From an uncultured Anaerobiospirillum sp. (GTDB lineage: Bacteria; Pseudomonadota; Gammaproteobacteria; Enterobacterales; Succinivibrionaceae): DNA of 64,000 bases. The translations under genes and the position numbers were made by a program. Shown here piece by piece: positions 1 through 56,877 of the stretch (its first letter is position 1; each line of letters opens with the position of its first letter). Where the stretch lies: assembly GCA_944390115.1 (NCBI GenBank), contig CALXOW010000001.1, positions 58,233 to 122,232 on the forward strand, written 5' to 3'. The notes under the pieces were generated by a model. The model saw only the letters and a list, made by a program, of their open reading frames with translations. It did no database searches and was not told the origin of the DNA.

Positions 1-3000
1 AGGCTATTGTGTGGCAGCTTTTGATAGTACAGGACGCGAATGCTCTGGCTCTTGAGCTGCTTGCGATCGAGCAAGTCATCAAGATAGAACACGGCATCAC
101 ACGACTTGTGGATCTGCGTGATCGCTTGGGTCAGGCGATCGTTGCCGAGCGCGCGGTATTCATCTTCGATGGTGCGCTCATAAAGCGGCGTCGGGACCGT
201 CAGGGTGCTGGAGCTTGGCTCAGTTAAGCCCAGAGCGAGTGCGGCCTGTCCTGCTTGACTCAGGCTTACTTGCTGCGCGGTCAGGGCTTGCTCGAGTTGT
301 ACTTGCGCCTTTTTGAAGTCTTGGTAGGAGCCAATCTTTAAGTAGTAGATACTGTGCAAGAGCATAATCTTGCTTAAAGGCAAGACCGGACTGACCACAA
401 AGCGCCCTAAGGCCTGGGTCGGCGTGGCGTCAACCATATTGATGAGCGATGGCTGGTAGTGCACCTCATCGCTGACCACTGGGACCTCGTACGCCGGGGT
501 GAATTGGAAGCTCGAGCGAGCATCGAAGGCATGCACCATCAGGCCAATTTGGGCAAAACGATCGTTGCCCGAGCTCTCATTGCTGTGCGCGCTGTCGTAG
601 GTGTAGGTGTTTCCGTAGGTGCTGCCATAGCTGTTGGCGCTGACCGCATTTTGCTGCAAGCTCATGCGCTCTAAGTAATCGTTGAGCGTGCCAAAGCGCT
701 TGCTTAAGCCGACGCCATTATCCTCGAGCAAGATGGTGACGCTGACGTCCTTGACGAACTCCGGGCCTTCAAGTGATTGCTTGAGGGCAAAGCGCTCACC
801 TTCAAAGAGGGCAAATACCTCTTGGGCTTGCTGGGCGCTTGGGCACAATATGACCAAGTTCAAACGAGTGCCACTCCAGTTTTCGTGCTGCTCGTGCTGC
901 AAGGTGCGATAGAGCTCCAAGGCAAAGCCTGGTACCGGGCAATGACTTAAGATCAGGGTGCATTGACTGAGCGGATAAGGGTGATGCTTGAGGTAAGCAC
1001 CAATTTGCGCGCTCAAAGCACCTAAGGCTAATTCGCTGGAGTTGCTGCTGGCGTTAGCGCCACCAATGCCCGAGCAGCCGCCACCGCCTTGGGCACCGTT
1101 AGAGAGATTGGTCGTGATGGCCTTCTTCGGGCGCCCACGGCCCTTGAGATTGACGGGACGGGCAAGGTTCTCACCTAAGTCCGAGCGCAGCTTGTTGGAG
1201 GCCACATACAGGGTGTAGCCGCCTAAGGCTTGGGTGGCAATAAGTTCGCTATAACGGGCATTGACCGGGGCATCATGCTGACTTAAGCCATTGAGGCAGA
1301 GCTCGGGGGCGTCGTAGTAGTTGAGATCTTGCTCTAAGGAGGCCAAGAACACATCGCGATCGTTGATCGAAATTGGCTTTTCCAAGATGTCGCAGATGAG
1401 CTCTTGAGTGCGCTCGAGCTTGCAGGCGTGGCTGCGCAAGGCCTCGACCGTAAATGGAGTGGCAATGGCGTAGCTTGAGTCTTGGGCGCTGGCACTCTTA
1501 CGATAGGCCATACCTACTTGCAAGATGAGAGCAAGCAGTTCCTTGAGCTTAGCGGTCGCCGGGCTCAAGCCTTGTTGCAGCTGATTAATCGGGCTCTGTA
1601 AGAGCTCGTACTGGAGGGCGCTATAGCTGTGGCTGAGCTCATGGCAGGCGTGCGGCTGCAAGGTGCAGTCTTTGAGCTGCTGTAAGCAGTCGTGATAGTG
1701 CTGCTCAAATTGAACAAAGCAATCTTTGATTGGTTGGGTAAGGCTAGGGTCGTTGAGCTGCTGCTCTAAGCTCTCCATCGTGGCCTGCCAGCGCGCGCTT
1801 AAGTCACAATCAGCGCTGTCGCTGACGTTAAAGAAGGTGCGCTCACTCTTCTCTGGAATCAAGAGCGTGGTGCTATTGTAGAGACTTAAGTCTTGGAGCG
1901 TGCCTTGCGCCGTAAACTCATCATGCTCAAAGAGGCCACAACGTAAGATTGGGCCTGAGGTGAGGGCCTCTAAGTCAGCACTGAAGAAGGAGCTGACGCG
2001 CTCAGGGCGCAGCTGCCAAGTGAGCTTAAACGGCTTGCCTTGCTCGAGCGTATTGCCTTCCTTTTTACGATAGGTTGGAGTGAGCACCAAAACTAAGGTG
2101 AGATCGCGTTCCTTAGTGGACTTGGCAGGCTGTTTTTTCCCGCGTGCGGCAAAGAACTTTTGGTAGTTAAAGAGCGGATTGAGGTCGGGCTCGTCCTGGG
2201 ACTCTGCTTGCTTCGAGGTGGTATTGCTCCCGGCGTAATCCACCACCAAGCGCCCGCCCAGGCGCTCGGTCAGGCCACGCAGGAACGCGCCATAGCGCAG
2301 GCTAAAGTACGACATCACCGCCGCATTCTTCTCTAAGATCTTCTGGGCGGTGCCATCTAAGGTGATGGTGAGGCGCTCGAGCAGCTCCTCGCTGTCGTCG
2401 CCGCTGCGGGCTAAGTTGAGCACCGCCTTGCTCAGCGATAAGAGGAAATTAGGCTCGGCGTAATTGTCCTCGTAGTAGATGTACTTTTCCCATTCCTTGC
2501 TGATCGACGTCTCTTGGTCGAAGATAGCGCGGCGGCTTTGGTAAAGCTCATTGAGCTCATTGCGATTGTCACGGGTCAGGGCCTTGACGTCTTGCTTGAC
2601 CAACTCAATCGTGGTTTCTTCTTGGGTGGTGAGCTTGGCCTCGTTGGTCAAATTGTCCTGGAACATGGCCATGGTGCGCTCGTAGAGGCTCTTCTTTTGC
2701 TCGGCCTTAGGCTCAGGGTTAAAGAAGAGTTCGAGCTTGCCCGTCCATTCAATCGTGCACAGCTGCGCAAAAAGTGCCTCGCGCTTGCTTTTGGGAGCGA
2801 CAAATTCCTTGAGCAGGCCTGACTCCCATTCAGCAAGCAGTGGTACTTCCTCCTTAGTGCCCTCAATCACAGTCGTGGCCGTGAGCAGTGGGCTCAGGTT
2901 CTCTTTGAGCTTGTTAAGCTTGAAGCTCTCTAATGGCTGGCCAGCGGCGACCGCATAATTAAAGAGGGTCGGGCGTTCTTTTAAAATGCCGCTCACTAAG

Positions 3001-3905
3001 CGCTTAACTTGCAGTTTGGTGTAAGGCTTAGGGCTCTTGCTCTTAGTTAAGAAGAGCTCTTCTTGGCGCGGGATCTGGAAGGTAGGCAAGGCCTGACCTA
3101 AGGCTGAGCGCACATTGCGTGCTCCGGCGGCCAAAGCTAACAGAACCTGGGCGATATAGGCGCTGACATCACTGGGCTTGACGCTTAAGGTGTCGCATAG
3201 GGCACTTAAAGTGGTGGCTAAGTCATCGCGCAGCGGGTCGGTCAAGAGCGCGGCCAAGATGCGCGGCACGTCCTTGATCTGGGCTTGTTCATAAGGCGTA
3301 AGTTCGGTGCTAAGCTCAGGTAGAGCTTGCTGTAAGGAGGTTAAGACCTCGACTAACACCGCTTTGTCTGAGAGGTGCTGCTTTAAGCTCTCGGAGTTGA
3401 TGCGATCGGTGATATTGCTTAAGGTGTCCTCGTTCTCACCGCTGGAGATAGCGCAGAGCTTGATGGTATTAGGCTCAATATTGTTGCGCCAATAGGTCGC
3501 GTTTTGGTCATTGGCCACGACCCACGAGGGTATGTTTGGACCTAAATCCAAGTCTTGCAGGGCCTTTTGCGTGATCGCAATCGAGAGATTGCTGGCGATC
3601 TCACCTTGCTCCTGCAGCGCCTGCACTTTAGCCACAATGGCCGTGAGGTAGTGCGGATCTAAATGTTCAAATAAGATCAGGCGTGATGGAGCAAAGTCTT
3701 GCTCGTCATCATCACCTGTTTCCTCGCCTTGCTCGGGCAAAAACTCCAGCACGCACTGCGCGCCCACTAAGCCTAAGATTTCTTGGGCTAAGCGTGCGGC
3801 CACGGCATCGTGAACCGTTTGCAGCTCACGCTGATAGGCTAAGGCCTGATTTTCAGCGACCGTCAGCTCCAGGTTAACGGTCGGTGGAGTGGTTTGAGTG
3901 GACAT
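1..3905 (-). CDS. DptH-like large subunit of a Dnd-type restriction module (partial, C-terminus off window)
   Basis: Open frame from ATG at 3905 running out of the left edge, with 1301 codons visible. The start sits 26 nt after the preceding gene, with GGGGA about 9 nt upstream. An AT-hook-like GRGRPKK lies at residues 922-928, followed by a Gly/Ser-rich linker. Near the edge the pattern QAITQIHKSCDAVFYLDD resembles a segment I recall from DptH/HerA-type ATPases. No Walker A motif is visible. In DptH proteins (about 1700 aa) the ATPase region is C-terminal, so it would be off the window. The assignment rests mainly on position after DptF- and DptG-like genes, on size, and on that one segment. 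In the family the protein acts with DptF and DptG to restrict DNA lacking phosphorothioate marks. Alternative: the large ATPase of another restriction-like system. Confidence 0.45.
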   Translation of the reverse strand, partial: MSTQTTPPTVNLELTVAENQALAYQRELQTVHDAVAARLAQEILGLVGAQCVLEFLPEQGEETGDDDEQDFAPSRLILFEHLDPHYLTAIVAKVQALQEQGEIASNLSIAITQKALQDLDLGPNIPSWVVANDQNATYWRNNIEPNTIKLCAISSGENEDTLSNITDRINSESLKQHLSDKAVLVEVLTSLQQALPELSTELTPYEQAQIKDVPRILAALLTDPLRDDLATTLSALCDTLSVKPSDVSAYIAQVLLALAAGARNVRSALGQALPTFQIPRQEELFLTKSKSPKPYTKLQVKRLVSGILKERPTLFNYAVAAGQPLESFKLNKLKENLSPLLTATTVIEGTKEEVPLLAEWESGLLKEFVAPKSKREALFAQLCTIEWTGKLELFFNPEPKAEQKKSLYERTMAMFQDNLTNEAKLTTQEETTIELVKQDVKALTRDNRNELNELYQSRRAIFDQETSISKEWEKYIYYEDNYAEPNFLLSLSKAVLNLARSGDDSEELLERLTITLDGTAQKILEKNAAVMSYFSLRYGAFLRGLTERLGGRLVVDYAGSNTTSKQAESQDEPDLNPLFNYQKFFAARGKKQPAKSTKERDLTLVLVLTPTYRKKEGNTLEQGKPFKLTWQLRPERVSSFFSADLEALTSGPILRCGLFEHDEFTAQGTLQDLSLYNSTTLLIPEKSERTFFNVSDSADCDLSARWQATMESLEQQLNDPSLTQPIKDCFVQFEQHYHDCLQQLKDCTLQPHACHELSHSYSALQYELLQSPINQLQQGLSPATAKLKELLALILQVGMAYRKSASAQDSSYAIATPFTVEALRSHACKLERTQELICDILEKPISINDRDVFLASLEQDLNYYDAPELCLNGLSQHDAPVNARYSELIATQALGGYTLYVASNKLRSDLGENLARPVNLKGRGRPKKAITTNLSNGAQGGGGCSGIGGANASSNSSELALGALSAQIGAYLKHHPYPLSQCTLILSHCPVPGFALELYRTLQHEQHENWSGTRLNLVILCPSAQQAQEVFALFEGERFALKQSLEGPEFVKDVSVTILLEDNGVGLSKRFGTLNDYLERMSLQQNAVSANSYGSTYGNTYTYDSAHSNESSGNDRFAQIGLMVHAFDARSSFQFTPAYEVPVVSDEVHYQPSLINMVDATPTQALGRFVVSPVLPLSKIMLLHSIYYLKIGSYQDFKKAQVQLEQALTAQQVSLSQAGQAALALGLTEPSSSTLTVPTPLYERTIEDEYRALGNDRLTQAITQIHKSCDAVFYLDDLLDRKQLKSQSIRVLYYQKLPHNS

Positions 3906-3931
3906 AGACGACAATCCCCAGCAAGGATGGA

Positions 3932-5995
3932 TTAAGATTGAGGGTTTGGACCCGCCGCACAAAATGGGTTTTTAACGAAATCACAGCCGTCGCTTAAGAC
4001 CAACAAGAAGCCTAAGCGCTCGAGCTTAATACGCAGGGCACGTTCGTTTTTGCGAAATTCCTCATCGAGATCGCCCAAGCGCAAGCTGCCATAGTAGCGG
4101 CCGCCTTTAGCGTAATTGGCCCGTGCCTGCTTGACGCCAATGATGATGTGATAGCGCTCGGCGAGCGCTTGCAAAAAGTCTTGCCAAGGCAAATGACGGT
4201 TCTTGCCTAAGATCGCCATCACCAAGGTCGTGACCAAGTGGTCACTTAAGACATAGCAGTGGCCGGTGGTGAGCTCGGTGGTGATAAGGCCAATCTGGCG
4301 CCCCAGCACGCGATGATAGTTGTTGTCGTAGGCGCGCTGATCTTGGAAGTAGCCCAAGAATACCGTGACAAAATCCTTGTAGCCGACCCGCAAGGCCACA
4401 ATGCGCTCGTACGGCGTGCCGACCGGATTTTTGCCCTTGAGGAGCGCCAGCTTGTCGGCCAGGTAAGTTAAGAGCTCAGTTTGCCCAGTTTGATTGAAGC
4501 TAAAGAGGGCAAAGATTGCCTTCAAGATTAGGTTAACCTTGTCGGCCGTGAGCACGCCCCCTTTAAAACCGGGTTGTACTTCCTCGAGGAAGAGGCGTAA
4601 GTGCGCATAGGCGTATTGCTTTAACATCAGGGCATGGAGCTCGTAGTTGGCCTTACAGCGCATAAGCGCGGCCTTGCGCATCCGGTCTTTAGGCGAGGTA
4701 TTGACCGCTGGAATGATGCTGATATCGACTGCCTTATCGGGATCGTAGAGCGCTATCGCGCCTTGGCTTTGCTCAAGTCCCAACACCATAAAATTGAGCA
4801 AGGTGATAGTACCTAAGGCCTCAAAGAGGTCTTGGTGGGTTAGACTTTGGGCCAAGATATTGGCATAGTCACCTAAAAGCTGGATAAAGATACGGTGGCC
4901 TTGCAGTGGGAAGGAGTTGAGGTGATTGAGCTTATCGACCGCAATCTGACCTATCGGCCACGAGGCTTTCTGCTTATCTCTGAAGTAGTTAAAGTCACTG
5001 TCGTCGGCATTGGTTGCCAAAGCCCCGGCATGCGCTGCAAGGTATTGGCACAGCTCCAGCTCGGCTTGGGCATAAGGCCCTTCGACTTGTTGGGCGCAGC
5101 GATTGAAGATATTAGGTTGCTCTAAGAAACGTTGATAGAGCTCCCGTCCCACTTGCTGGGTGAGCGCTAATACTTGGCCGCTAAAGCGCTTGGACTTGAC
5201 CTCTAGTCCCAGCTCCGGATAGAGCGAGCGCTCATGAGCGCTGCTGGCCCAATTCTGAAATTGCTGGAGACTAGCCTTGGTGGGGGCGCGCATCAGGGCA
5301 AAGTAAAGGATTTGCCCTGAGCCGCTTAAGTCAGGACTGATCGGCTTGAGCTCTTGGTTGAGCTGCCAAAAACAGGTGTAGGGACCACACGGAATTAAAA
5401 AACGTGAAGTCCAAGCAACCCCATCACCGCTGTCCATCGCCCAGTTTTGCAAGAGGCGTAAGGCGGTGGTAAAGGTGGCAAAGTCTTTAAAACTGCGCTT
5501 GAGGTAGCTCAGATCCAAGGCGGGACTGTCCTCAGTACCATTAATCCAGTTGTTGGCACTGACGAATTGTTGCTGCCATTGCTCCCACTTGTGTTCGTCG
5601 GTTAAGTCATTGCGCTGATTAATCGGACCCACCGTATTGTTGTTGAAGATCAGGGCCCGCAGCAGCACATGCTTGGTGCGGATAAAAGCGGGGTAGAACT
5701 CAGAACTTAAGCGTACCTGCGGTTCTTGCCAGTAGGGCATCAGCGCAAAGTTACGCGGCTGGCACATGAGTACCTGCAAGAACTCAATCATAGTGCCGTC
5801 GCGGGTGCACTGATTATTGAGGCCAAAGCCGAGCAAGTCTTGCTCTAACAAAAACTTATGCTCAGCATAAGGCTGCTTGGGGTGGGAACGTACTCCCAGC
5901 AAGTTGGCCTCAGCGCGTTTGCGCTGATCGACATACTGGCGCGTCGTTTTAGAAGCGCTACTGGTATGGGCAGGAGTGCGGACGGACTGAGTCAT
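3932..5995 (-). CDS. DptG-like protein, second copy (687 aa)
   Basis: Paralog of the upstream 973-aa gene. Both share a GQ-hydrophobic segment (SGSGQILYFALMRAP here) and a C-terminal block with a helical LSDHLVTTLVMAILGKNRHLPWQDF-type stretch. They end in SDGCDFVKNPF, where DptG proteins end in an SDSGDAxYVR-type motif. DptG (about 430 aa) partners DptF and DptH in phosphorothioation-dependent restriction; no enzymatic motif is known or seen. The start overlaps the previous stop as TAATG, so the two are probably translationally coupled. At 687 aa it is much longer than typical DptG. DptG-like identity is inferred from the C-terminal pattern and operon position. Confidence 0.5.
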   Translation of the reverse strand: MTQSVRTPAHTSSASKTTRQYVDQRKRAEANLLGVRSHPKQPYAEHKFLLEQDLLGFGLNNQCTRDGTMIEFLQVLMCQPRNFALMPYWQEPQVRLSSEFYPAFIRTKHVLLRALIFNNNTVGPINQRNDLTDEHKWEQWQQQFVSANNWINGTEDSPALDLSYLKRSFKDFATFTTALRLLQNWAMDSGDGVAWTSRFLIPCGPYTCFWQLNQELKPISPDLSGSGQILYFALMRAPTKASLQQFQNWASSAHERSLYPELGLEVKSKRFSGQVLALTQQVGRELYQRFLEQPNIFNRCAQQVEGPYAQAELELCQYLAAHAGALATNADDSDFNYFRDKQKASWPIGQIAVDKLNHLNSFPLQGHRIFIQLLGDYANILAQSLTHQDLFEALGTITLLNFMVLGLEQSQGAIALYDPDKAVDISIIPAVNTSPKDRMRKAALMRCKANYELHALMLKQYAYAHLRLFLEEVQPGFKGGVLTADKVNLILKAIFALFSFNQTGQTELLTYLADKLALLKGKNPVGTPYERIVALRVGYKDFVTVFLGYFQDQRAYDNNYHRVLGRQIGLITTELTTGHCYVLSDHLVTTLVMAILGKNRHLPWQDFLQALAERYHIIIGVKQARANYAKGGRYYGSLRLGDLDEEFRKNERALRIKLERLGFLLVLSDGCDFVKNPFCAAGPNPQS

Positions 5996-8916
5996 TATTT
6001 TTCCCTCTCCACCGCTTGGCTAAATGGATTGCGCACATAGTCGCACGCATCACTTAAGCTGATGAGCAAATGATTGCGCATAAGCTTGAGCTTGAACTGA
6101 CGCTCATTGGCGATGAAGTCTGCGTCCTCCACGGCGTAGGAACCAGCTTCACCTAAGCCAATCACCAAGTGATAGCGCTCATGGAGCTTGGTTAAAAAGT
6201 CCTTGAGGGCAATTGGGTGCCCCTTCGGGACTAAGGCCAGCACCAAGTAATAGAGCAGCTCATCGCTTAGGCTATAGTAATAGCTGACCGCGCTTTCCTT
6301 GGTGGTAAGCCCAATATCGGCGCTCCAAGTTGAGTGCAAGCTCTGGATGTGCATATCACGCTCATCGTCAATCAGCACCGACTCAATCTCAGCATAGCTA
6401 ATGCCGTCGGGCACGGTGGTCACGCACTCTAAGTTTTGGTCGTCCTTAGCCTTAGGCTGGGTAATAGTGCGCTCGAGCAGGTTAATGCGTACGCTCGGCT
6501 TGAAGTCAAAGGCGCAGCGCATTAGATTGCACACCAGCTTTTGCTCAGTGACGGTCAGAAGGGGCTTAGTTAAAAGCTCCGGGGCGCAAGCTGCGACCAC
6601 GGCACGCAAGTGGGCCTTGACGTAGTGGGCGCGTGCCTGAGCAAAGAGCGCAATATTTTCCTTGAAGCGGCGCATCGAGAGCGCGCGTAGCCCGTTTTTA
6701 TGCTCAGGATTGGCCACGATCACCATATTGAGGTCGCACGTGTGCGTGGCGTCTCCGGGCAAATCGAGCACCTTTTGTTCTTGCTCTAACAGATAGCAGA
6801 GCTGATGGAGCGCGCCTAAGGAGCCTAAAGCCAAAAACAGCTCTTGTTTGGTCAAATCAAGACTACAGAGCGCCTCAAAATCCTCACGTAACAAGTGGTA
6901 GCGCGGCAGATCGCGATACGGCAAATAGCGTGTAGTCGCGATGCGAATGCGTTGCGTGCTTAGATTAATGCGTTGCTCAAACGACGTGGCCGCTTGAATC
7001 TGTTGTTGCAAGTGCTGCTCAGTGACTTCAAGCTCTTGCTCAAAGCCGGGCAGCAAGGTGCCACTTAAGAAGCGCGCGCCGGTATTGAGGCCATTGTGAT
7101 CGACAAAGAAACGTTCCACCAGTCGAGAGCCCAATGAAGCAGCGCCTGCGCGTACCAGCATGCTAAAGACGTTTTGGCCCGCACCGCCCATCAGATTGAT
7201 GTTAAAGCTTAATTCACTATCGATTTCCCAGAACAGGGAATCATAGCCAAAAGGAAAGAGGAAGAGGGTCGACCATTGACGGTTCTTGTCGGTGTCGATT
7301 GACCATGAGCGCAGCACTTTAACCAAGGTGACAAAGCGCTCAAATTGTCCTAGGCATACTTCCTTGAGCTGAGTCAACAGTGCGGCCAAGAACTCAGGCT
7401 GGTACGTCGTATTATTTTCGCTTCGGTTTTTAGGCGGAGTTTGCAGTTTGGCGCTAAATTGCTCAAACCACTGCTGCCATTTGGCCTCATCTTGCTGATT
7501 AGTTGCGGCGATGATGCCCAGTTCTGGGTTATTAAACAGGATCTGGCGCAAGATGAGGTTGCGGCGCTTTAAGAAGGCAAAGCGGCCCCACTCATCGCTT
7601 TGGGCCACGGCAAAAGGATCGGACTGATTTTGGCTGGCAAGCACGGTCAGAAACTCAAGCATGAGATGGGTACGTTGCTCACTGTGGTCAAAACCGGTGC
7701 CCAAGATATCTTCTTCGAGCTGATAGAAGCTGTAACCTGCCTCACGCAGATGGGCAAAGCGCTGGCCTAAGGTCTTATCTTCGCTCGCGCGCACCTGAGC
7801 TAAAACTGGTGCCACCAGCTTGCGGCAAGTCTCCAAATCTAAAGCCTGGGCGGCAAAGTCAGGCGACAATGGCGCGGGCGCTGATTGCGCACTAGCCTCA
7901 CGATCAAGCTCTGGCGCGCTCTCAGTAGTTGCGGCAAGCTGAGTAGGTACGTCAGCTATGGTGTTGACCATACCTGCTAAATTGCTGGGCGTAGTCGCAG
8001 TACTTGGTTCGCTAGTATGCGATGCTACGATCGCCGTAGCGTCGGCCGCTGGTGCTAAGGGTGCTGGGACGGGCGTCGTGGCCTGAGCTGTTGCTGCCGA
8101 TAAGTCAGGGGCTGCAGCGTACGAAGCAGCAGACGAAACAGCGGCGCTATCAGAATCAGCAGGCGCTGGAGCGCAAGTAGGCGGGACGGTAGCGTGCGCA
8201 TGCTGCGGCGTACTGGTCGAGAGTAGGGATAAGACAGGGTTAGCGCGACGGGCACTCGGGGCGATACCCAGCAGGGCAGCGCGGTTTTCACGCTTGAAGT
8301 TTGGGCCTAAGCCGCCTTGGGGCTCTTCGTCCTCAGAAGAGGCCGACATATCAGGGGCATGCGGTAAGTTCGCGTTTAAGCCGCTTGGCATTTGGTCTTC
8401 AGGCAAGCCTGGTGCCTGTTGCCAGCCTGCAGCTTCGCTTTGGGGAGCTGGTACCTCTAGGGTGCTGTTGGTAGGCTGCAAGTTTGGCTCTAAGGCACTT
8501 TGGGGCTCTTCCTTGTCAGGAGCAGTTGGGGTGCCATTGACGCGCTGGACGATTTCAGCGATGAAGGCCCGATCGGTGGCACGGCGCAGGTACTGCTCGT
8601 GAGCCTTTTGGGCATAGTTAAAGTGCGCTTTGGCCCGAGGCTGCATGTGGCGTCCCTCAGCAATGAGAGCGGCTGCTTGCTGGGACGTAAGTGTCGTTGG
8701 CCCCATCTCGCGCGCCCGATAGGCGTCCTTGTGCGCTAATACCGACTCGGTTAAGTCATCATGTTGCTGCAAGGCTTTGTATTGATTGCTCAGACGCATT
8801 TCGGCATCAGTCGGGGCCATGCCAGCAAAAATGGCATCTTCGGCTGCTTGGCGCAAGCTGTCTTGCTCATTGGGGCTCAGGGGCTCAGTAATTGGCTCGG
8901 ATAAATCGTTGGTCAT
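5995..8916 (-). CDS. DptG-like protein, first copy with long low-complexity N-terminus (973 aa)
   Basis: The C-terminal 600 or so residues are homologous to the downstream 687-aa protein: GGAGQNVFSMLVRAG, LSDELLYYLVLALVPKGHP, and a terminal SLSDACDYVRNPF. The last motif matches the DptG-type C-terminus. Residues of about 130-370 are rich in Ala, Pro, Ser and Thr and look disordered. They contain a short internal duplication (EEPQSALEPNLQ and EEPQGGLGPNFK). ATG at 8916 follows AGGGG, ten nucleotides after the DptF-like stop. Presence of two diverged DptG-like subunits in one operon is unusual. Role inferred: scaffold or adaptor in a Dnd-like restriction complex. Confidence 0.5.
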   Translation of the reverse strand: MTNDLSEPITEPLSPNEQDSLRQAAEDAIFAGMAPTDAEMRLSNQYKALQQHDDLTESVLAHKDAYRAREMGPTTLTSQQAAALIAEGRHMQPRAKAHFNYAQKAHEQYLRRATDRAFIAEIVQRVNGTPTAPDKEEPQSALEPNLQPTNSTLEVPAPQSEAAGWQQAPGLPEDQMPSGLNANLPHAPDMSASSEDEEPQGGLGPNFKRENRAALLGIAPSARRANPVLSLLSTSTPQHAHATVPPTCAPAPADSDSAAVSSAASYAAAPDLSAATAQATTPVPAPLAPAADATAIVASHTSEPSTATTPSNLAGMVNTIADVPTQLAATTESAPELDREASAQSAPAPLSPDFAAQALDLETCRKLVAPVLAQVRASEDKTLGQRFAHLREAGYSFYQLEEDILGTGFDHSEQRTHLMLEFLTVLASQNQSDPFAVAQSDEWGRFAFLKRRNLILRQILFNNPELGIIAATNQQDEAKWQQWFEQFSAKLQTPPKNRSENNTTYQPEFLAALLTQLKEVCLGQFERFVTLVKVLRSWSIDTDKNRQWSTLFLFPFGYDSLFWEIDSELSFNINLMGGAGQNVFSMLVRAGAASLGSRLVERFFVDHNGLNTGARFLSGTLLPGFEQELEVTEQHLQQQIQAATSFEQRINLSTQRIRIATTRYLPYRDLPRYHLLREDFEALCSLDLTKQELFLALGSLGALHQLCYLLEQEQKVLDLPGDATHTCDLNMVIVANPEHKNGLRALSMRRFKENIALFAQARAHYVKAHLRAVVAACAPELLTKPLLTVTEQKLVCNLMRCAFDFKPSVRINLLERTITQPKAKDDQNLECVTTVPDGISYAEIESVLIDDERDMHIQSLHSTWSADIGLTTKESAVSYYYSLSDELLYYLVLALVPKGHPIALKDFLTKLHERYHLVIGLGEAGSYAVEDADFIANERQFKLKLMRNHLLISLSDACDYVRNPFSQAVEREK

Positions 8917-8926
8917 GAGCGTCCCC

Positions 8927-11098
8927 TTAGTCTAAACCACCGGCTTCGTTGAGCTGGCAGATTTGGATATTGTTAAAGAGCACGTCAAAGCTTGGCTCTG
9001 GGAAAATGTGCTGGTAGGTAAAGCTAATTTGTTCCGTAATCGTGGCATCGATGCTGGCCTTAAAGGCGGCCAGGTCGTTGGTGTTCTCTTGTGAGAACGA
9101 CAGGCCCGAAGTGCCGACGGCTAGTGCCATCAGGTACTCAAAGAGCTTGGGGTTAAGCTCTAAATAGCATTGCTTAGCAGGAAGTTTGCTTTGGTCATTA
9201 CCCTCAAGCATAGGGGTATTGAAGACTAAGGTTAAACGATCCTCGCCTAAGAGCTCAAAGCGCAGGGCGTTATCGCGGGCGTTGCCCTGGTAGTCGACCG
9301 GGACATGGTAGCGGCTGCGATCGTAGATGACACTCAAGGCCATCGGGTCGATCTTATTGTTGGTGGTGATATAGACCTCTTCAGCCGCCCCCGAGGTGAT
9401 CATAAGATTGGTAAAGGCGCGGTTGAGGCCGACCATCAGCTGGCGTGCCAGATCAAAACTGTTGGTGGAGCGCAAGTTAAGGCCTTGGCCTTCACGCCAA
9501 TAACTTTGTTTAATCTTGAGGGCGTCGTGCTTGAGCTTGAGATAGTCCAAGGCAAAAGGATAGGCCGTGAGCAAGAAGGGCGCAAAGAACGGCTTACCTG
9601 AGTTGCTGCTGGCACTTGCTTGGAAGATGGCATCGCTTTGAGCATCAGGCAGTACAAAGAAGAGTAAACGGCGTAGGCTCATTAAAAGCTCGGCCATCTG
9701 AGCGTACTCGGTGGAGCTGCCACCGTCCTCATCTAAGTCCTTGCTTTGGACACTGCGATAGCAGCGCTGCAAGCTCCCAAAGAGGTCGTAGTGGTCATGA
9801 AGCCGGGCTAAACGAGCATGGTAAGAGGCGATCTCGGCGGAGAAAACATCGGTGGTGGCGCCTAAAACCAAGAACTCGTCGATAAGCTTGGTGCTAAAAG
9901 CACCCAGATTTAAGGTGCCGAGCTCATGGAAGATTGGCATAGTGTCATCGCTCAAAAAGCTTTGCGGCTCTTCTGACTTCTTGCGCCCACGCTTGGTGGT
10001 GGCTGCTTTGAGATTGAGGCCCAACAAATTGTCAAACGGCTTGGAGCCTAAAGGCGTGGCCATGACTAAGCGGTCGACCTCAAATTGGTATGTCGCACGC
10101 TCTTCCTCGGTGGCTTCAGAACTTACCGGCGCTACCGCCTCGATTTGCTTGTTGAGACTCTTGAAATTGCGCATGACCACATTGCAGTTGAGATACTTAT
10201 CATCGTTGGTGCGGCCAAAGAGGGCGTTGACGATCAACAGGAGCACATTACGCATAGTAAAGTGCAGGCCGTTGTCGACTAAGAGCTCGTGGATTTGCAG
10301 CAGGCGCGTGAGCACCAGCGGCTCTTGCAGCACCTGACGATTGCGTACAATTGGGCATAGCGCGTGGTATGGGCACTGCGCGCACTGATCCCATCTGCTA
10401 TCGCCTAAGACCTTTTGATAGATCGCGGCGATTTCCTTAGTGCCCAAGCATGCGGACATATCGTGACATTGCACGCCCGGCAGCTTGTCGATTTTGCTGC
10501 GATCGTGCTCGAGCATATAGCGCTCAAGAGCGTGAATGAAGATATTGACCTCATTTTGGTCGCCGTAGAAGCTTTGGAAGCGCTCTAAGATCTTGCCATT
10601 ATTACCGGCGATGATGACGATGCGGCACGGGGCATCAGGCTGAGGATTTTGGTTTTGGTTAAAGATAGCTTCGATCGTGGCACGCAGCTTCTTTTGCTCG
10701 GCGTCGCTGTCGTTGGAGGTGAAGTCCTTAACCAAGGTGAAGGTGATCGGACCGCTCGCACCTTGCTTAGTGAACTCAAAGCAGTTCGGGCTGCGATTCC
10801 ACTCTTCGCGCGTGCCCCCTAAATACTCGGGGTCAGTGAATAAGGTGCGCAAGAAGTGGGTCTTGCCATCGCCCGCGCGTCCCGAGAGCAAAATGAGGCA
10901 GGACTGACGTTGGTCGATCGCGTGCTTGATGGCATCACGATATTCTTGTTGTTGTGGGAGGTCAAACTCAAAGGCTTCAATACCGAATTGCTGCGCGGTC
11001 TTGGCGACATGCTCGTCATACTGCAAGTTGCTGCCTAGGCCATAACTGCCTAGGTATGACACAAAGCCACTATTTGGAGTTTTAGCCACGGTCCTCAC
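8927..11098 (-). CDS. DptF-like P-loop ATPase (723 aa)
   Basis: Walker A GRAGDGKT lies at residues 73-80, in the context LILLSGRAGDGKTHFL, close to the GDGKS-type P-loop I recall for DptF. CRIVIIAGNNGKI (158-170) fits the following strand. A cysteine cluster C239, C242, C248 precedes an arginine-rich helical region. A basic KRGRKK lies mid-protein. In the family DptF is the ATPase of the DptFGH restriction complex, which acts on unmodified DNA in cells carrying the phosphorothioate system. It is first in a four-gene operon with gaps of 10 nt or less between the first three genes. Start uncertain: GTG at 11098 or GTG at 11090. Alternative: a different STAND/AAA defence ATPase. Confidence 0.55.
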   Translation of the reverse strand: MRTVAKTPNSGFVSYLGSYGLGSNLQYDEHVAKTAQQFGIEAFEFDLPQQQEYRDAIKHAIDQRQSCLILLSGRAGDGKTHFLRTLFTDPEYLGGTREEWNRSPNCFEFTKQGASGPITFTLVKDFTSNDSDAEQKKLRATIEAIFNQNQNPQPDAPCRIVIIAGNNGKILERFQSFYGDQNEVNIFIHALERYMLEHDRSKIDKLPGVQCHDMSACLGTKEIAAIYQKVLGDSRWDQCAQCPYHALCPIVRNRQVLQEPLVLTRLLQIHELLVDNGLHFTMRNVLLLIVNALFGRTNDDKYLNCNVVMRNFKSLNKQIEAVAPVSSEATEEERATYQFEVDRLVMATPLGSKPFDNLLGLNLKAATTKRGRKKSEEPQSFLSDDTMPIFHELGTLNLGAFSTKLIDEFLVLGATTDVFSAEIASYHARLARLHDHYDLFGSLQRCYRSVQSKDLDEDGGSSTEYAQMAELLMSLRRLLFFVLPDAQSDAIFQASASSNSGKPFFAPFLLTAYPFALDYLKLKHDALKIKQSYWREGQGLNLRSTNSFDLARQLMVGLNRAFTNLMITSGAAEEVYITTNNKIDPMALSVIYDRSRYHVPVDYQGNARDNALRFELLGEDRLTLVFNTPMLEGNDQSKLPAKQCYLELNPKLFEYLMALAVGTSGLSFSQENTNDLAAFKASIDATITEQISFTYQHIFPEPSFDVLFNNIQICQLNEAGGLD

Positions 11099-11235
11099 CT
11101 ACCATCACAAAAATCTACGTCAATCAGCCTATGTGCCTGAGCACACCTCAAAGATTCTAGCACGGGCCTCAGAATAGGGCGGCAAAAAAGGCGCCTAGTA
11201 CCAGCAAAGCGTGCGGGTGCTCACATATGAAAAAC

Positions 11236-11255
11236 GCGCAAGGCCCGGCTTGCGC
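11236..11255 (-). terminator. Rho-independent terminator of the MFS gene
   Basis: Minus-strand reading gives GCGCAAG, a 6-nt loop, CTTGCGC, then GTTTTTC. It lies 38 nt past the MFS stop and between that gene and the DptF operon start. Confidence 0.7.
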
Positions 11256-11292
11256 CCAAGAGCGCAAGTCAGGCCCAGGAGGGAGGATAGGC

Positions 11293-12855
11293 TTAGTTGG
11301 CGCGGGCGGCGACTAACTCAGCTGCTGCAACTTCGGCAGGTGCTGTTTCAGCTACAGTGGCTTCAGGTTGAGGCTCTTGGTGCGCCTTGTGGCGACTTAA
11401 GTACCAGCCGTAGCCGGAGGCGGCGATACCGAGCAGGCCCGAGATGGCGCTGATGGCTAAGATGATGACCGTGGCCTGAGCAAATTGCGCTGGGTAGAGG
11501 GCGCTGTCAGGCGAGGCCGTGACCACCGCTGCGATGATCAAGGACACTAACGCCAGGCTCGAGGCTTGACCTAAGGCGCGGCCCACCTGCTGGGTGCTCG
11601 AGGCCAAGGCGAAGTTGGCTTTGCCCACGGCAAAGGTCAGTAAGGTGGTGTTAGGCGCGGAAAAGAGCGCAAAGCCGGTGCCGACAAAGAGCTGGCGTAC
11701 GATTAAGCCCAGCGGCGTGGTGCTCTCATCGATGAAGACAAAGGAGCCTAAGGCAATGGTTTGGATGATAAGACCTAAGGTCACAACCGCATTGCCGCTT
11801 AAATAGCGCGTCAGGCGCCCGGTTAAGGTCGACACCAGGGCAATGGTGACTGGTTGCACCACCACGATAAAGCCGACGATGCTGGCCGGTAGGCCTAAGG
11901 TGAACTGTGAGAACAGGGCTAACAGCACCGGCTCAGCCATGACCGAGAAGTAGGCGGTGACGCTCACCAAGAAGCAGGCTAAGAAAGCCGGATTGTGGCG
12001 CAGGAAGTGGACTGGAATCACTACCTCAGGATGCTTCGGGGCTGGACCTGAGTGGGGAGTTGCGTGCTGAGCTAAACCATGGCGCTGGCAGATCGCATAG
12101 TCACGCGAGGCGACCAAGGCCAAGAGCAACACTGCCACGATAAGGCCATATGGGGCTAAGGCTTGGGTCGCTAAGGTTGAGAGCGAAATTAAGAACAGAC
12201 CGATGCCTAAGGCAAAAAAGAGGCTCTTGGTTTTGGGCAGACGCTGGTTCTGGTGCACTGGGGGCTGGGGCAGTTTACGGGCAACGAGAGTGAGCAGGGC
12301 AAAGGCGGCGGCGCTACCATAGAACATCCACTCAAAGCCGATCGAGTCGATAATGATGCCCGAAAAGCTCAGCGCGCTCGAAACGCCGAGATAGGTCAAA
12401 CCTACTGCAATGCCGATCGCACCAAAGCGCTGTTGTGCTGGTACTTGCTCGGCGATCAAGGCCATGGCAGTGCTCAGGCATAGGGCGGCGCTGGCACCTT
12501 GGAGCAGGCGGCCGACAAAGAGCAGCCAGACGCTCGGAGCTTGTGTGGTCACGGCCGTGGTGACGGCGCAGCCGATTAGGCCATAGACAAAGAGGCGTTG
12601 GTTGCCACGCTGGCGCGCCCAAATCGAGGCGGGCAGCAAGACGCACGCTAAAGCGGTAGCGTAGCCGCTGATGGCTAAGGTCACTAAGTGCGGTGGGCAA
12701 TCGAAACGCCCGACAAAGAAGGGCACGGCGACGGTTAAGGCGTTGCCGATGTAGGAGGTTAAGAATAAGGCGAGGCTGACGCAGCCGACCACCAAGATGG
12801 TGTGGGCGCTTAGGCGCTCTGTTGGGGCTTTTACCCCGGATGCAGTTGCTGGCAT
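11293..12855 (-). CDS. MFS drug-exporter-like transporter (520 aa)
   Basis: Highly hydrophobic protein with about 12-14 predicted membrane segments. An N-terminal segment LALFLTSYIGNALTVAVPF and the stretch WLLFVGRLLQGASAAL fit the first half of DHA1/DHA2 multidrug exporters of the major facilitator superfamily. These use the proton gradient to export small molecules across the inner membrane; no substrate can be named. The C-terminal tail (about 25 residues) is Ala/Glu/Thr-rich and probably cytoplasmic. ATG follows AAGGACGTGCATC. A terminator lies downstream, so it is probably monocistronic. No regulator gene is adjacent. Confidence 0.8.
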   Translation of the reverse strand: MPATASGVKAPTERLSAHTILVVGCVSLALFLTSYIGNALTVAVPFFVGRFDCPPHLVTLAISGYATALACVLLPASIWARQRGNQRLFVYGLIGCAVTTAVTTQAPSVWLLFVGRLLQGASAALCLSTAMALIAEQVPAQQRFGAIGIAVGLTYLGVSSALSFSGIIIDSIGFEWMFYGSAAAFALLTLVARKLPQPPVHQNQRLPKTKSLFFALGIGLFLISLSTLATQALAPYGLIVAVLLLALVASRDYAICQRHGLAQHATPHSGPAPKHPEVVIPVHFLRHNPAFLACFLVSVTAYFSVMAEPVLLALFSQFTLGLPASIVGFIVVVQPVTIALVSTLTGRLTRYLSGNAVVTLGLIIQTIALGSFVFIDESTTPLGLIVRQLFVGTGFALFSAPNTTLLTFAVGKANFALASSTQQVGRALGQASSLALVSLIIAAVVTASPDSALYPAQFAQATVIILAISAISGLLGIAASGYGWYLSRHKAHQEPQPEATVAETAPAEVAAAELVAARAN

Positions 12856-13410
12856 GATGCACGTCCTTAGGGATTTTTAAGGCCTCGCGGCCTGATAGTC
12901 AGTTAGAAAGGAGGCCACCACCTATCCCATGGGCAGCCTCCAGTTGTGCGCGGTGTGAGCTCACAGGATTGAGCTCAAAATCGGGTTAAGAAATCTGGTG
13001 CATCGTCATGACTGATGGCAAGGCTCAAGATACCCGCCTTGTTAGCTATAGTCTAATATTACTTTTTCATGATTCGTGATAACTAAAATGCATAGCCATC
13101 ATTGTCAGAATCTAGAACCGGATAAAACGCGATAAACATCAGCTTTGTGGGTTTGAAAGGTGGTGCCTAGTCAGTGCTTGGCTTTAGAGCAGCGGGACGG
13201 GGCGGGCGCGGCTATTGGTGGTGAAGCCATATTTTGGTAAGCATTGCCAAGTCTTGGGGCATGGGATAGTTTTGGGCTTGTCGGTGCGGCCTCAGTTTCA
13301 GTCTAGATGGAATTTATGCCCTGTCATGGTGCGTTTGGCATGCGCTGTGCTCAGCGCCCGCAAAAGCGGTGGTAGGACCGCTGTGTGTGGAACGAACCAA
13401 GGGAGTTAGC
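12856..13410. other. Intergenic region between divergent MFS and Mrr-like genes
   Basis: 555 bp without a supportable gene. It holds a GC hairpin near the MFS start (GGAGGC and GCCTCC around 12909-12940), an AT-rich patch at about 13045-13090, and unremarkable sequence before the Mrr-like gene. Confidence 0.5.
13057..13083 (-). promoter_or_regulatory. Possible promoter for the MFS gene
   Basis: On the minus strand TTATCA and TAATAT are separated by 15 nt in the only AT-rich patch of the spacer, about 200 nt upstream of the MFS start. Spacing is short, so this is tentative. Confidence 0.25.
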
Positions 13411-14454
13411 ATGGCCTTTTGGATCTGTGAGACGCAAAGTGTGAACGAAGAGCAGGCTTGCTTAAGCCAAGGCTTCATCTGCTGTGGCGATGATGCTATC
13501 GCCATGAACCTTAACGACTACCCCCAGGCCAAGAATTTGACCTTCTACCTCGAGGACATCTGTGGCCTAGACGAACATGCTGCTACGACCTTGACCGCTG
13601 CGTGCTGGCCTTTTGCCTACGAGCTGCAGGTCGGCGATATCGTGATTTTAGAGAATATTGAGACCTCAATTTGGCATCTGGGCACGGTCGTTGGTATTTA
13701 CGAATGCCGCGATGAGGGCTTAGGGCGTTTAGCTCAGCGCCGCGCCGTGTCTTGGTTTAGCTTGACCATCGATCGCTCCTTATTACCGCAAGACTTGCAA
13801 GCAGCCCTGCACGTCTATCAAGAGCGCGACCTAAGTCGTTTGACTCCTGAGCAAGAGGAGCGCTTGACTACTTACCTCATGGCCTGCTGGCAGCAGCGGG
13901 CGCCTGAAGGTAGCGTGTTTAACGCAGGTCTTACGACAGTCACGGCATTGAGTCGTGAGCAAGAGCGGGCCTTCTTGCTACGTCAAGCCTTAAATCCAGC
14001 GCCAGCGGCGATCAGCCAAGAGCGCCTGGTGCTGATGCACCTTAAGATCAAGCTCGCCGCCGGTGAGCTCAATATGGCCGATGTGGTCAAGTGCCTCATT
14101 CAAGCCTTTGGCCTGAATGTCAACGACGTCCCTGAGAGCACAGCCAAGACTGTGACCTTGGTTAGCAGCCCGCAAAATAACGCTGCGGTCAAAGTGCTGT
14201 GGCAGGTGCGTATGGTGCCGCTGCCTCTGACCTTGCAGGTCTTGGATTTCATGGAAGGCATTCTGCCCATCTACAAATGCTCGCGTGCGATGCTCATTTC
14301 CTTAAGCGGCTTTGACGCTGACTTAACCGCAGCGGTCAAATCAGGTAAGACCGCTTTTCAAGTAGTGCTGTGGGGCCCCGAGGAGCTGGCACGTGAGCTC
14401 ATCAGCCAAAAGGAGCGTCTCACCCCAACCCTCAGACAAGCCTTAGAGCTGTAG
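13411..14454 (+). CDS. Mrr-like restriction-type protein with degenerate nuclease core, copy 1 (347 aa)
   Basis: Start ATG at 13411 follows AAGGGAG with good spacing. The N-terminal 100 residues (MAFWICE..., GDIVILEN at 75-82, HLGTVVGIYEC at 89-99) match the DNA-recognition half seen before Mrr_cat domains, where the pattern is roughly 'xxW-RAG ... GD-V ... iG-I-G-Y'. The C-terminal 90 residues follow the Mrr fold: VLWQVR, then MLISLSGF, then VVLWGPEELA. The usual GGIDL aspartate is replaced by KTVTLVS, and the QxK lysine is arginine (QVR, 265-267). This suggests a binding protein rather than an active nuclease. A paralog lies 1.5 kb downstream. Family call is inferred from pattern only. Confidence 0.5.
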   Translation: MAFWICETQSVNEEQACLSQGFICCGDDAIAMNLNDYPQAKNLTFYLEDICGLDEHAATTLTAACWPFAYELQVGDIVILENIETSIWHLGTVVGIYECRDEGLGRLAQRRAVSWFSLTIDRSLLPQDLQAALHVYQERDLSRLTPEQEERLTTYLMACWQQRAPEGSVFNAGLTTVTALSREQERAFLLRQALNPAPAAISQERLVLMHLKIKLAAGELNMADVVKCLIQAFGLNVNDVPESTAKTVTLVSSPQNNAAVKVLWQVRMVPLPLTLQVLDFMEGILPIYKCSRAMLISLSGFDADLTAAVKSGKTAFQVVLWGPEELARELISQKERLTPTLRQALEL

Positions 14455-15940: not shown

Positions 15941-15955
15941 CTTTAGGAGATGAGA

Positions 15956-16906
15956 ATGGCTTTTTGGCTGTGTGAGGCGGCAAGCAGCGAGGAGGAGCAA
16001 GACTGGCTCACTCAAGGCTACATCGGTTGCGGCTCCGAGGGCGTACCGATGAACCTCAACGATTACGACAACGCCGCTGATCTCACCTACTACTTTGAGG
16101 AGGTGTGCGGCCTCGAAGATCGCGAAGCCCAGACGCTCACGGCTTCGTGCTGGCCTTTTGCCTATGAGATGCAGCCTGGGGACATCGTCATCTTAGAGAA
16201 CCTCGAAAACTCGACCTTGCACGTGGGCACGGTGACCGGCCAGTATCAATGCGATGAGCAGCGCTCGGCGCGCAAGGCCCAGCGTCGTACTATCAATTGG
16301 TATGACTTTACCTTAGAGCGCAGCCAATTGCCCCAGGAATTGCAAAGCTCCTTGCAAGAATTTCAGTCGCGCGACCTAAGCCGCCTGTCCTTAGAGCAAG
16401 AAGAGAGCTTTAGCCAGTACCTCAACTCCAGCTGGCAACAGAATCATGCGGCTTCGATGGTCACCTCGGCCTTGACCCGTGAGCAGCTCGTGATCTTGCA
16501 GCTTAAGGCTAAGCTCGCTTCAGGTGAGCTCAAGCTAAGCGAGGTGATGACGCAGCTCATTGAGGCACGCGGGCTCAATGTCGCTGAGGTGCATGAAGCT
16601 TCGGCCAAGAACCTCACCTTGATCAGCACCAGCCCGGCGCAGGTGTTATGGCAAGTGCGCAGTGCCGAGCAACCGGTAACGGTCCAAGTCCTGGATTATC
16701 TCAACGGCCTCATTCCGCTCTACCAAAGTCAGCACGTCATGCTCGTCTCCTTAAGTGGATTTGCGCCGGAGCTTAAGACAGCGGTAGAGCCAGGCAAGCT
16801 CAGCTATCAAGTGGTGCTGTGGGGACCTGATGAAATCGCCGCGATGCTGCTCAGCCTGCGTGAGCATTTGTCAGCGCCGTTGTGTGCCGCCTTAGCCTTG
16901 GGTTAG
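15956..16906 (+). CDS. Mrr-like restriction-type protein with degenerate nuclease core, copy 2 (316 aa)
   Basis: Start chosen at the second ATG (15956), which has AGGAG six nucleotides upstream and aligns with the paralog's MAFW start. Domain order matches copy 1: MAFWLCEAAS, CWPFAYEMQPGDIVILENLE, LHVGTVTGQYQC, a central linker about 30 residues shorter, then VLWQVR (R235), MLVSLSGF and VVLWGPDEIA. The catalytic lysine is again arginine and the expected aspartate is absent. The same loss in both copies argues it predates the duplication. Whether it binds modified DNA is unknown. A bidirectional hairpin terminator follows. Confidence 0.5.
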   Translation: MAFWLCEAASSEEEQDWLTQGYIGCGSEGVPMNLNDYDNAADLTYYFEEVCGLEDREAQTLTASCWPFAYEMQPGDIVILENLENSTLHVGTVTGQYQCDEQRSARKAQRRTINWYDFTLERSQLPQELQSSLQEFQSRDLSRLSLEQEESFSQYLNSSWQQNHAASMVTSALTREQLVILQLKAKLASGELKLSEVMTQLIEARGLNVAEVHEASAKNLTLISTSPAQVLWQVRSAEQPVTVQVLDYLNGLIPLYQSQHVMLVSLSGFAPELKTAVEPGKLSYQVVLWGPDEIAAMLLSLREHLSAPLCAALALG

Positions 16907-19314: not shown

Positions 19315-19341
19315 TTGCGTCGGGTGCAAGCTTGCTATAAT
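19315..19341 (+). promoter_or_regulatory. Sigma70-type promoter for the DUF1189-like gene
   Basis: TTGCGT and a perfect TATAAT (19336-19341) with 15-16 nt spacing, 35 nt upstream of the chosen TTG start. Confidence 0.55.
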
Positions 19342-55264: not shown

Positions 55265-56877
55265 ATCACAAAGGCGTTGATAAAGTCCGCCATAATGGCT
55301 TGAGCGGTTGGCTCAGGGATATCCTTGAGCACGGTAAAGCCTAAGTGGGTGACTGCGCCATCATTAAGCTCAGTGCGGGTGTAGTGGGCTCCCAGCTGCA
55401 CATGGCAGGAGAAGTAACCTAAGTGCGCGCACGGATCGTCCTGAGGCAGCGCCCGCGCAATTAGCCCTAACAAGTGCTCACGATTAGGTACTCCGCGCAC
55501 CGTGCCCGGTTTGATATTATAGAAGTGCTGGACCAAGGTGTGCTCGCCTTGCGCCGTAGCTTGCAGCGCGGTAGTGCGCTCCTTGACTCGCTCCCAGTAA
55601 TCAGGCGCCGTCGGGTGGCTCTCATGATTGACCACATAGTCAAAGAAGTACGGCATTAAATCACCATGGCTTAAGGCAAAGGTGCGATAGAGGAAGTAAC
55701 CGGTATGGCGTCCAGCCACATCGACGACATAAGGCGTCAGGCTCGAGCGGTCACCACAGAGCACGATATCGGACATGATGACCGAGTTATTGATGCCCAA
55801 GGCCGCCGCAACGCGCTCTAACTCAGAGATAATCGCGGCGCGCTGGGCCGGAGGCAAGAGGCGCGAGCTGTAGCTCAGCTCTTGGCGATACGGCCACGGA
55901 CTCATCTCGAGCTTGGTTAAGATGAACGGGGCAATGAGCTTACCTTCGACGATGATGCCATTACCGCTGACTTCGAGGTCATGCTCGATATAGTTCTCGA
56001 TTAACATGTCGTAGCAGAAGATATCGCCGCGCGCCGCCTTAGATGCAACACGCTCAGCAATATCGAGCAGAGCAGTCTTGAGCTCAGTTTCATTGGTGAC
56101 TACGGTCACCATGCGTGAGCCCGAGCCAAAGCGCGGCTTGCAAATCAAAGGAAAGCCCTGCGTAGCGACAAAGGACGCAATCTTGGCTTCAATCTCAGCC
56201 CAGGACAAGGTGAGCTCGGCTTCACTGAGCCACAATTGCGGGGCCGCGTTGCAGCCCGCTGCGACCAAGAGGTCACGCACCCGCTTTTTGTCGGTGAAGT
56301 TAAGGGCACATTGCTCGGAGATGCCAGGCAGTTGGCAGCGGTCATTGACCTCACCTAAGTGCTTGATGAGATAGCCAATCGGGGCAGGGAGTAGGGCCTT
56401 AACCGCAAAAGCCTGGCAAGTGCGCACGTAGAGGTCGATAGTACGGATATCAACTCGACACGAGATCAAGAGATTGCCCCTAACCTCAAGATCAGATGGT
56501 AACAGGCGTGCAAGCAAGGCCTGAATGCGTGCTTGCTGCCCCGACGACGCACCTAAACCCGCGCCCCAGTGCAGCCCAGCGGCCGCGCCCACATCCGGCA
56601 CGCCACTACTTAACGTGCAGGTATCAAGCTCGGCTAAAGTGGCGGATAGTTGTTCTTGGGTGATTTCCACGGCAGTGAGGAGCGATGCGTCATAGTTAGG
56701 GTCAACATAGAGCTCGCGTAAGCACCACGAAGCATCCCAGCCCAGTGATAAGACATTAAAGCCCTTGCGGACGCTTTGCAGGATTAAGGCGGAACACTCA
56801 GGACTTGCCCCCATGCACATGACAAAGGGACGGTTTACCCAAGGGACAATAGGGACAGCAAGCTCTGATGTGCGCAT
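55249..56877 (-). CDS. ATP-grasp-domain ligase of unknown substrate (542 aa)
   Basis: ATG at 56877 is chosen because GGAGG precedes it. An N-terminal Rossmann-like region (FVMCMGASPECSALILQ) is followed by an ATP-grasp fold: FTDKKRVRDLLVAAGC, GFPLICKPRFGSGSRMV (ATP-binding Lys and flexible loop), DMLIENYIEHDLEVSGNGI and VVDVAGRHTGYFLYR (Mg-binding region). The layout resembles CarB-like or amino-acid ligase proteins that join carboxylates to amines. An insertion of about 55 residues (about 82-140, Ala/Gly/Ser/Leu-rich) and a C-terminal domain are not recognised. No biosynthetic partners are adjacent. Confidence 0.75.
   Translation of the reverse strand: MRTSELAVPIVPWVNRPFVMCMGASPECSALILQSVRKGFNVLSLGWDASWCLRELYVDPNYDASLLTAVEITQEQLSATLAELDTCTLSSGVPDVGAAAGLHWGAGLGASSGQQARIQALLARLLPSDLEVRGNLLISCRVDIRTIDLYVRTCQAFAVKALLPAPIGYLIKHLGEVNDRCQLPGISEQCALNFTDKKRVRDLLVAAGCNAAPQLWLSEAELTLSWAEIEAKIASFVATQGFPLICKPRFGSGSRMVTVVTNETELKTALLDIAERVASKAARGDIFCYDMLIENYIEHDLEVSGNGIIVEGKLIAPFILTKLEMSPWPYRQELSYSSRLLPPAQRAAIISELERVAAALGINNSVIMSDIVLCGDRSSLTPYVVDVAGRHTGYFLYRTFALSHGDLMPYFFDYVVNHESHPTAPDYWERVKERTTALQATAQGEHTLVQHFYNIKPGTVRGVPNREHLLGLIARALPQDDPCAHLGYFSCHVQLGAHYTRTELNDGAVTHLGFTVLKDIPEPTAQAIMADFINAFVIEPDA

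Follow-up and report, generated by a model that had tools for sequence, protein, structure and literature searches.

An SspFGH-type operon with two G genes and an FtsK-type motor in Anaerobiospirillum, predicted to act without phosphorothioate marking

The closest described counterparts of the genes reported here are SspFGH, known from Vibrio anguillarum FF-93 (PMC8092258), DndFGH (DptFGH) and the MAD6-MAD7-MAD8 part of MADS. According to PMC8092258, FGH without the phosphorothioate (PT) mark damages its own host in the case tested there. PMC10853773 argues for a stand-alone DndFGH and for the capture of HerA/FtsK motors by DndH; sspF, sspG and sspH have 0 occurrences in its text. Our search of the open PMC literature returned no report of a stand-alone SspFGH, a doubled SspG or FtsK capture in SspH. 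We describe here a four-gene operon, F-G1-G2-H, in the leftmost 11 kb of a 64,000-nucleotide stretch (the window) of contig CALXOW010000001.1 from an uncultured Anaerobiospirillum sp., a gut bacterium of the Succinivibrionaceae (assembly GCA_944390115.1, genome G000; the window starts at contig base 58233). In our view the operon probably encodes an SspFGH-type restriction complex which works without PT marking and whose pump has been captured from FtsK, a function that we infer from sequence.

Family and layout of the operon

The four coupled genes all lie on the minus strand. F (8927..11098; 723 aa from a GTG start) is separated by 10 nt from G1 (5995..8916; 973 aa), the stop of G1 and the start of G2 (3932..5995; 687 aa) overlap by 1 nt (TAATG), and the likely ATG of H, at 3905, follows the G2 stop after 26 nt. 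The window holds an N-terminal part of H of ~1,300 aa (1..3905); the longest H frame opens at a TTG at 3962, and the gene exits the window leftwards to end at contig position 55289, giving 2,301 aa counted from the TTG. PADLOC profiles for SspF (1.8e-65), SspG (1.4e-68 for G1, over aa 400–965; 7.9e-53 for G2) and SspH (2.3e-65) are all matched within this one operon. In G1 the SspG core follows an N-terminal extension of ~370 aa, and G1 and G2 are 28% identical. F has a Walker A motif (GRAGDGKT, aa 73–80), which is present in 20 of the 20 F proteins compared, and a cysteine cluster (CAQCPYHALC, aa 239), which is found in 19 of them, the exception being that of the outside genome G173. Because the same gene order recurs in G396, in G262 and, cut by a contig end inside G1 so that F lies beyond it, in G398, an assembly artefact is unlikely; nor do we regard the four-gene operon as a chance arrangement.

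The initial annotation had described this operon as a Dnd/Dpt-type system. Its observations on the genes stand, namely a P-loop ATPase, two G-like proteins and a giant partner in one coupled operon, and the motifs that it quoted for G1 (SDACDYVRNPF) and G2 (SDGCDFVKNPF) are exact, but the family name does not: the profile search places these proteins in Ssp. No Dnd/Dpt NCBIfam model matched at E ≤ 1 (with H scanned to aa 1320), and the PADLOC DndF match reached merely 1e-4. A structure model predicts a DndG fold for G2. A PDB sequence search with profiles of G, F and the nuclease domain gave nothing useful.

The search for a marking gene

No SspB, SspC or SspD homologue was found to the left of the window, where the initial annotation had suggested looking for modification genes, or elsewhere among the 86 non-overlapping open reading frames (ORFs, 100 aa or longer) of the whole contig (C1). 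PF01507, which covers DndC and the PT sulfur-transfer protein SspD, had no match in the window genome, nor in 10 of the 11 genus genomes; the eleventh, G310, has a single match (6.6e-7), which is the sspD of a coupled cassette. The same search was positive in 14 of 14 control genomes. A repeat search with the SspD profile matched one of the 11 genomes, again G310 (7.2e-127). The genome-wide searches covered PF01507 and SspD, those for SspB and SspC the ORFs of the contig and of the cassette stretches. Among the ORFs of the cassette stretches that were fetched, SspB/C/D homologues were absent except in G310_C25 and G173.

We mapped 19 FGH cassettes in the genus for which the sequence read shows no homologue of SspB, SspC or SspD; 18 of these cassettes sit in genomes without a PF01507 match. 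Outside the genus, sspD adjoins SspFGH in eight of eight genomes (G173, G639, G518, G596, G701, G841, G1078 and G953), all three proteins being only distantly related in G596 and G701. Of 28 matching plasmid records ten were read, and eight of these carry sspC and/or sspD within ~9 kb; those of Sphingopyxis (NZ_CP009431) and Polaromonas (NC_008758) have neither nearby. FGH is thus normally coupled with sspD and only exceptionally stands alone, but Anaerobiospirillum is not the sole place without an adjacent sspD.

It is unlikely, in our estimate, that this is a standard, PT-dependent SspFGH with its sspBCD genes hidden in assembly gaps or carried on a lost plasmid. The genus assemblies are 81–95% complete, that of the window 92.85% (123 contigs), and marking genes do enter the genus, as seen in the full sspBCD-FGH cassette of G310. 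However, the ten genomes missing both PF01507 and SspD include eight that are at least 90% complete, and among the sspD-less genomes are NML120449 with three cassettes and NML120448 with two. The coupling seen in all eight outside genomes also argues against lost genes, as do the trees, in which F and G of stand-alone cassettes are separated from those of the two coupled cassettes, although a long-branch warning applies there.

The self mark might instead be a different modification whose methyltransferase is unlinked, on the pattern of MADS, in which MAD6-7-8 forms the FGH-like part. Both G proteins show weak MAD7 similarity (E 0.006 for G1 and 0.0095 for G2), and methylase-like MAD2 matches below the cut-off occur in 10 of the 11 genus genomes. 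Nevertheless, MAD2 is above the cut-off in none of the 11, and the three-cassette genome G280 lacks any match to the MAD2 family, which makes this explanation highly improbable to us. The profile scan of cassette-flanking genes behind this judgement covered some of those in the window and two in G280. Membership of MADS itself was rejected on the same MAD2 result and on MAD7 scores of 15.0–15.7 bits against a cut-off of 410.

The census behind these counts used several searches. Order-wide, the SspG profile matched nine of 395 genomes, comprising seven Anaerobiospirillum, G173 (an Ssp locus) and G090. The last, at first an SspG match outside the genus, is a MADS locus (L156), whose MAD8 also weakly matches the HerA profile. 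A search with the G alignment matched 11 of 11 Anaerobiospirillum genomes, five of 369 in a class sample and four of 398 in a phylum sample, with the window genome counted in each; a peptide-pattern search for related loci reached the genus only and is no census of outside loci. Stand-alone cassettes number one each in G000, G262, G396, G398, G310 and G395, two each in G346, G319 and G337, three in G280 and four in G397, several H genes running off contig ends. The only coupled sspBCD-FGH cassette in the genus is that on contig C25 of G310 (A. succiniciproducens DSM 6400); its H has 1,610 aa, with no FtsK motor detected by Pfam in the C-terminal 810 aa. An additional H C-terminus runs off the contig end at G397_C9, and contig C182 of G395 (9528–12458) carries a lone H C-terminus with the nuclease motif and an FtsK-type motor, the 20 kb read there containing neither F nor G; this fragment is either a remnant or a free-standing nuclease-pump.

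The FtsK-type motor of H

Beyond the window, H continues with a D...ExK motif at aa 1420–1466, a proline-rich linker, an FtsK alpha domain, a motor (Walker A at aa 1982) and a tail. The D...ExK motif, which we take to be catalytic and PD-(D/E)XK-like, is kept in 18 of the 19 H proteins that reach this region. A model of the nuclease domain has HamA as its best match, with McrC, MspJI, Nt.BspD6I and FokI among the next, all at a modest Z of ≤7.5. The C-terminal part of H matches the Pfam families FtsK_SpoIIIE (PF01580; 2.1e-48) and FtsK_alpha (PF17854; 1e-9), and its alpha-motor-tail region aligns end to end with the cellular FtsK of the same genome (44% identity over 501 columns, E 7e-125). 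A Pfam scan of the H tail at E ≤ 0.1 gave no row for the gamma domain, as the tail of FtsK is called, though the tail aligns with that FtsK. In the motor tree the FtsK-type H group with FtsK and apart from six ordinary SspH motors (support 100/100). As judged from this alignment and tree, H has captured an FtsK alpha-motor-tail, which stands where an SspH normally has its own type of motor, and the donor is to be placed among the FtsKs of the host family; as to the exact donor, the fork in the motor tree is open. As to whether FtsK was captured once or twice, a single clade of all seven FtsK-type H is not rejected (p-AU 0.27), though the F tree and the whole-H tree both put G280_C44a beside ordinary-motor cassettes. 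Contig C44 of G280 holds two tandem FGH cassettes, one with an FtsK-type H tail and the other with an ordinary SspH motor. The H of three cassettes has no recognised motor.

The motor differs sharply between G000 and G396, which are sister genomes and whose cellular FtsKs are also sisters in the tree. DNA identity over the FtsK part of H (contig 55485–56863) is 72.6%, as compared with 93% towards F; in the other direction, beyond patches of 84–90%, it is 93.6%. At the protein level this part is 67–69% identical with a synonymous divergence (dS) of 1.7–1.8, whereas the cellular FtsKs are 98.1% identical with a dS of 0.34. Six neighbouring genes have dS values of 0.17–0.48 and provide a fair yardstick for the H motor. 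Along H, dS rises from 0.19 (aa 1–1330) through 0.64 (nuclease part) to 1.8 (FtsK part), and a divergent block lies at about aa 1100–1300. A clade of the G000 and G396 H proteins is rejected (p-AU 0.0017, for a group named after the tree had been seen). On these divergences the H motor has been replaced by a divergent allele and has not changed by ordinary drift. The dS values of F (0.093), G1 (0.015) and G2 (0.043) are all under the neighbour background, and because of this the F/G1/G2 block looks to have been recently shared, by exchange, between the two lineages.

A domesticated, non-defence complex, acting for example on the chromosome or its terminus through the FtsK-like pump, would accord with the FtsK-type alpha-motor-tail, with the presence of SspG in all 11 genomes and with a conserved locus. 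F-G1-G2-H is common to G000, G396, G262 and G398; in G000 and G262 it has an ABC-transporter gene pair (identified by eye) on one side and an MFS gene on the other, while the flanks match on both sides in G396 and on the transporter side in G398. We nonetheless consider domestication rather unlikely, given a copy number of one to four with very divergent copies, the retained nuclease motif, candidate defence genes among the neighbours and a motor allele that differs between sister genomes in a way unusual for housekeeping. The MFS gene (11293–12855, minus strand; PF07690, 1.5e-31) adjoins F and stands beside the operon in G396 and G262 also. The candidate defence genes are two paralogues of the PADLOC family PDC-S02 on the plus strand (13369–14454, 7.5e-24; 15950–16906, 3.7e-31), the second of which has a weak Mrr_cat match slightly below the cut-off; a protein near the G280_C9 cassette, related to these by eye, has Mrr_cat above it. 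To the left of the window, at 19325–23032 of contig C1, are three tandem genes with identical first 60 residues, which we assume to be flagellin-like.

Two G subunits, proposed action and comparison with known systems

The initial annotation had remarked that known DptFGH systems carry a single, shorter DptG; each of the 18 outside loci read has one G of 508–547 aa. The G tree separates G1 from G2, each as a fully supported clade. G346_C89 carries a G1-type G alone and both G319 cassettes a G2-type G alone, while the F and H of all these cassettes form one clade. Because monophyly of G1 and G2 is weakly rejected (p-AU 0.034, which is marginal and concerns a group named after the tree had been seen), and with it a tandem origin within the lineage, one of the two, perhaps G2, may have been acquired from another cassette and not have arisen by a simple late tandem duplication. 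G346_C89 has no relic of G2, a tblastn match there proving to be the C-terminus of G1 itself. An independent second G-G pair occurs in another species, in G397_C9, its members being sisters at 100/99. The doubling of G, which arose at least twice, suggests that a G layer can become heteromeric.

In the pairs compared, dN/dS is 0.14–0.27 for G1, 0.09–0.27 for G2 and 0.09–0.27 across whole F, G1, G2 and H, values that are rough in all pairs except G000–G396 since dS exceeds 1 and is saturated. Both G genes look to be maintained by purifying selection. This bears on the view that the locus is a decaying restriction-modification (R-M) remnant, drifting after loss of its modification half, which would accord with the three cassettes whose H shows no recognised motor and with the H fragment lacking both F and G. 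Intact frames, the dN/dS values, the intact Walker A of the FtsK-type motor and the presence of SspG in 11 of 11 genomes, with up to three or four cassettes in some, all point the other way; decay already appears disfavoured by selection and is very unlikely.

For an SspFGH that works without PT, we propose that the F and G subunits would recognise or license the DNA substrate and that H would pump the DNA, its nuclease cutting or nicking it, F-G-H being an ATP-driven machine that needs no PT mark to defend the cell from phages or plasmids. Target choice would come from parts of DNA-binding type (the two G, the FtsK tail) and not from PT, and also from where the FtsK motor engages DNA, for example segregated, replicated or transferred DNA; the second G may make the G layer heteromeric or bring in a further recognition specificity. 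Because FGH without PT harms its host, as PMC8092258 reports, the lineage must have some other restraint or trigger, for which the extended G proteins, the second G, or a pump acting only on DNA in an FtsK-like situation are candidates. The same logic is proposed for DndFGH, captured HerA/FtsK motors included, in PMC10853773. More speculatively, and with considerable doubt, the locus could represent self/non-self discrimination without a chemical mark, in which a PT-free SspFGH with two co-evolving, DNA-binding G and an exchangeable pump from a host-family FtsK has its targets set by recombinational swapping of motor and DNA-reading tail between strains. This can be likened to the swapping of specificity subunits in type I R-M systems.

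With intact FGH found without sspD in this genus, how FGH spares self becomes directly testable, using NML120448 and NML120449 (no sspD found) in comparison with DSM 6400 (sspBCD present). The locus also extends two ideas put forward for Dnd, stand-alone FGH and HerA/FtsK capture, to Ssp, and adds a case with a donor among host-family FtsKs and a motor allele replaced between sister genomes.

Compared with the SspFGH of V. anguillarum FF-93 (PMC8092258), the locus shares the F, G and H profiles, the Walker A motif in F, the FtsK-like C-terminus of H and the order F-G-H; it differs in having no sspD found, two G genes and longer F and G. Its H, at ~2,300 aa, is longer than the 1,771–1,849 aa found in 17 of the 18 outside loci read, and has an FtsK alpha domain and an FtsK-like tail. 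Unlike a cellular FtsK, the H motor is joined to an N-terminal SspH part that carries a nuclease motif, and its last 56 aa are the most divergent (54% between the sisters). With DndFGH/DptFGH the locus shares the predicted DndG fold of G2 but neither an NCBIfam Dnd profile match nor a match to PF01507, the family covering dndC. MADS includes a dedicated methyltransferase (MAD2) and S subunit (MAD5), whereas its MAD6-MAD7-MAD8 part resembles FGH: in G090 the MAD7 C-terminus matches the SspG profile and MAD8 weakly matches DndH and SspH. These likenesses suggest that MAD6-7-8, SspFGH and DndFGH belong to one FGH superfamily. Separate ideas of this kind already exist for Dnd; what is new here is an SspFGH that lacks its marking half, has two G genes and carries a captured FtsK.

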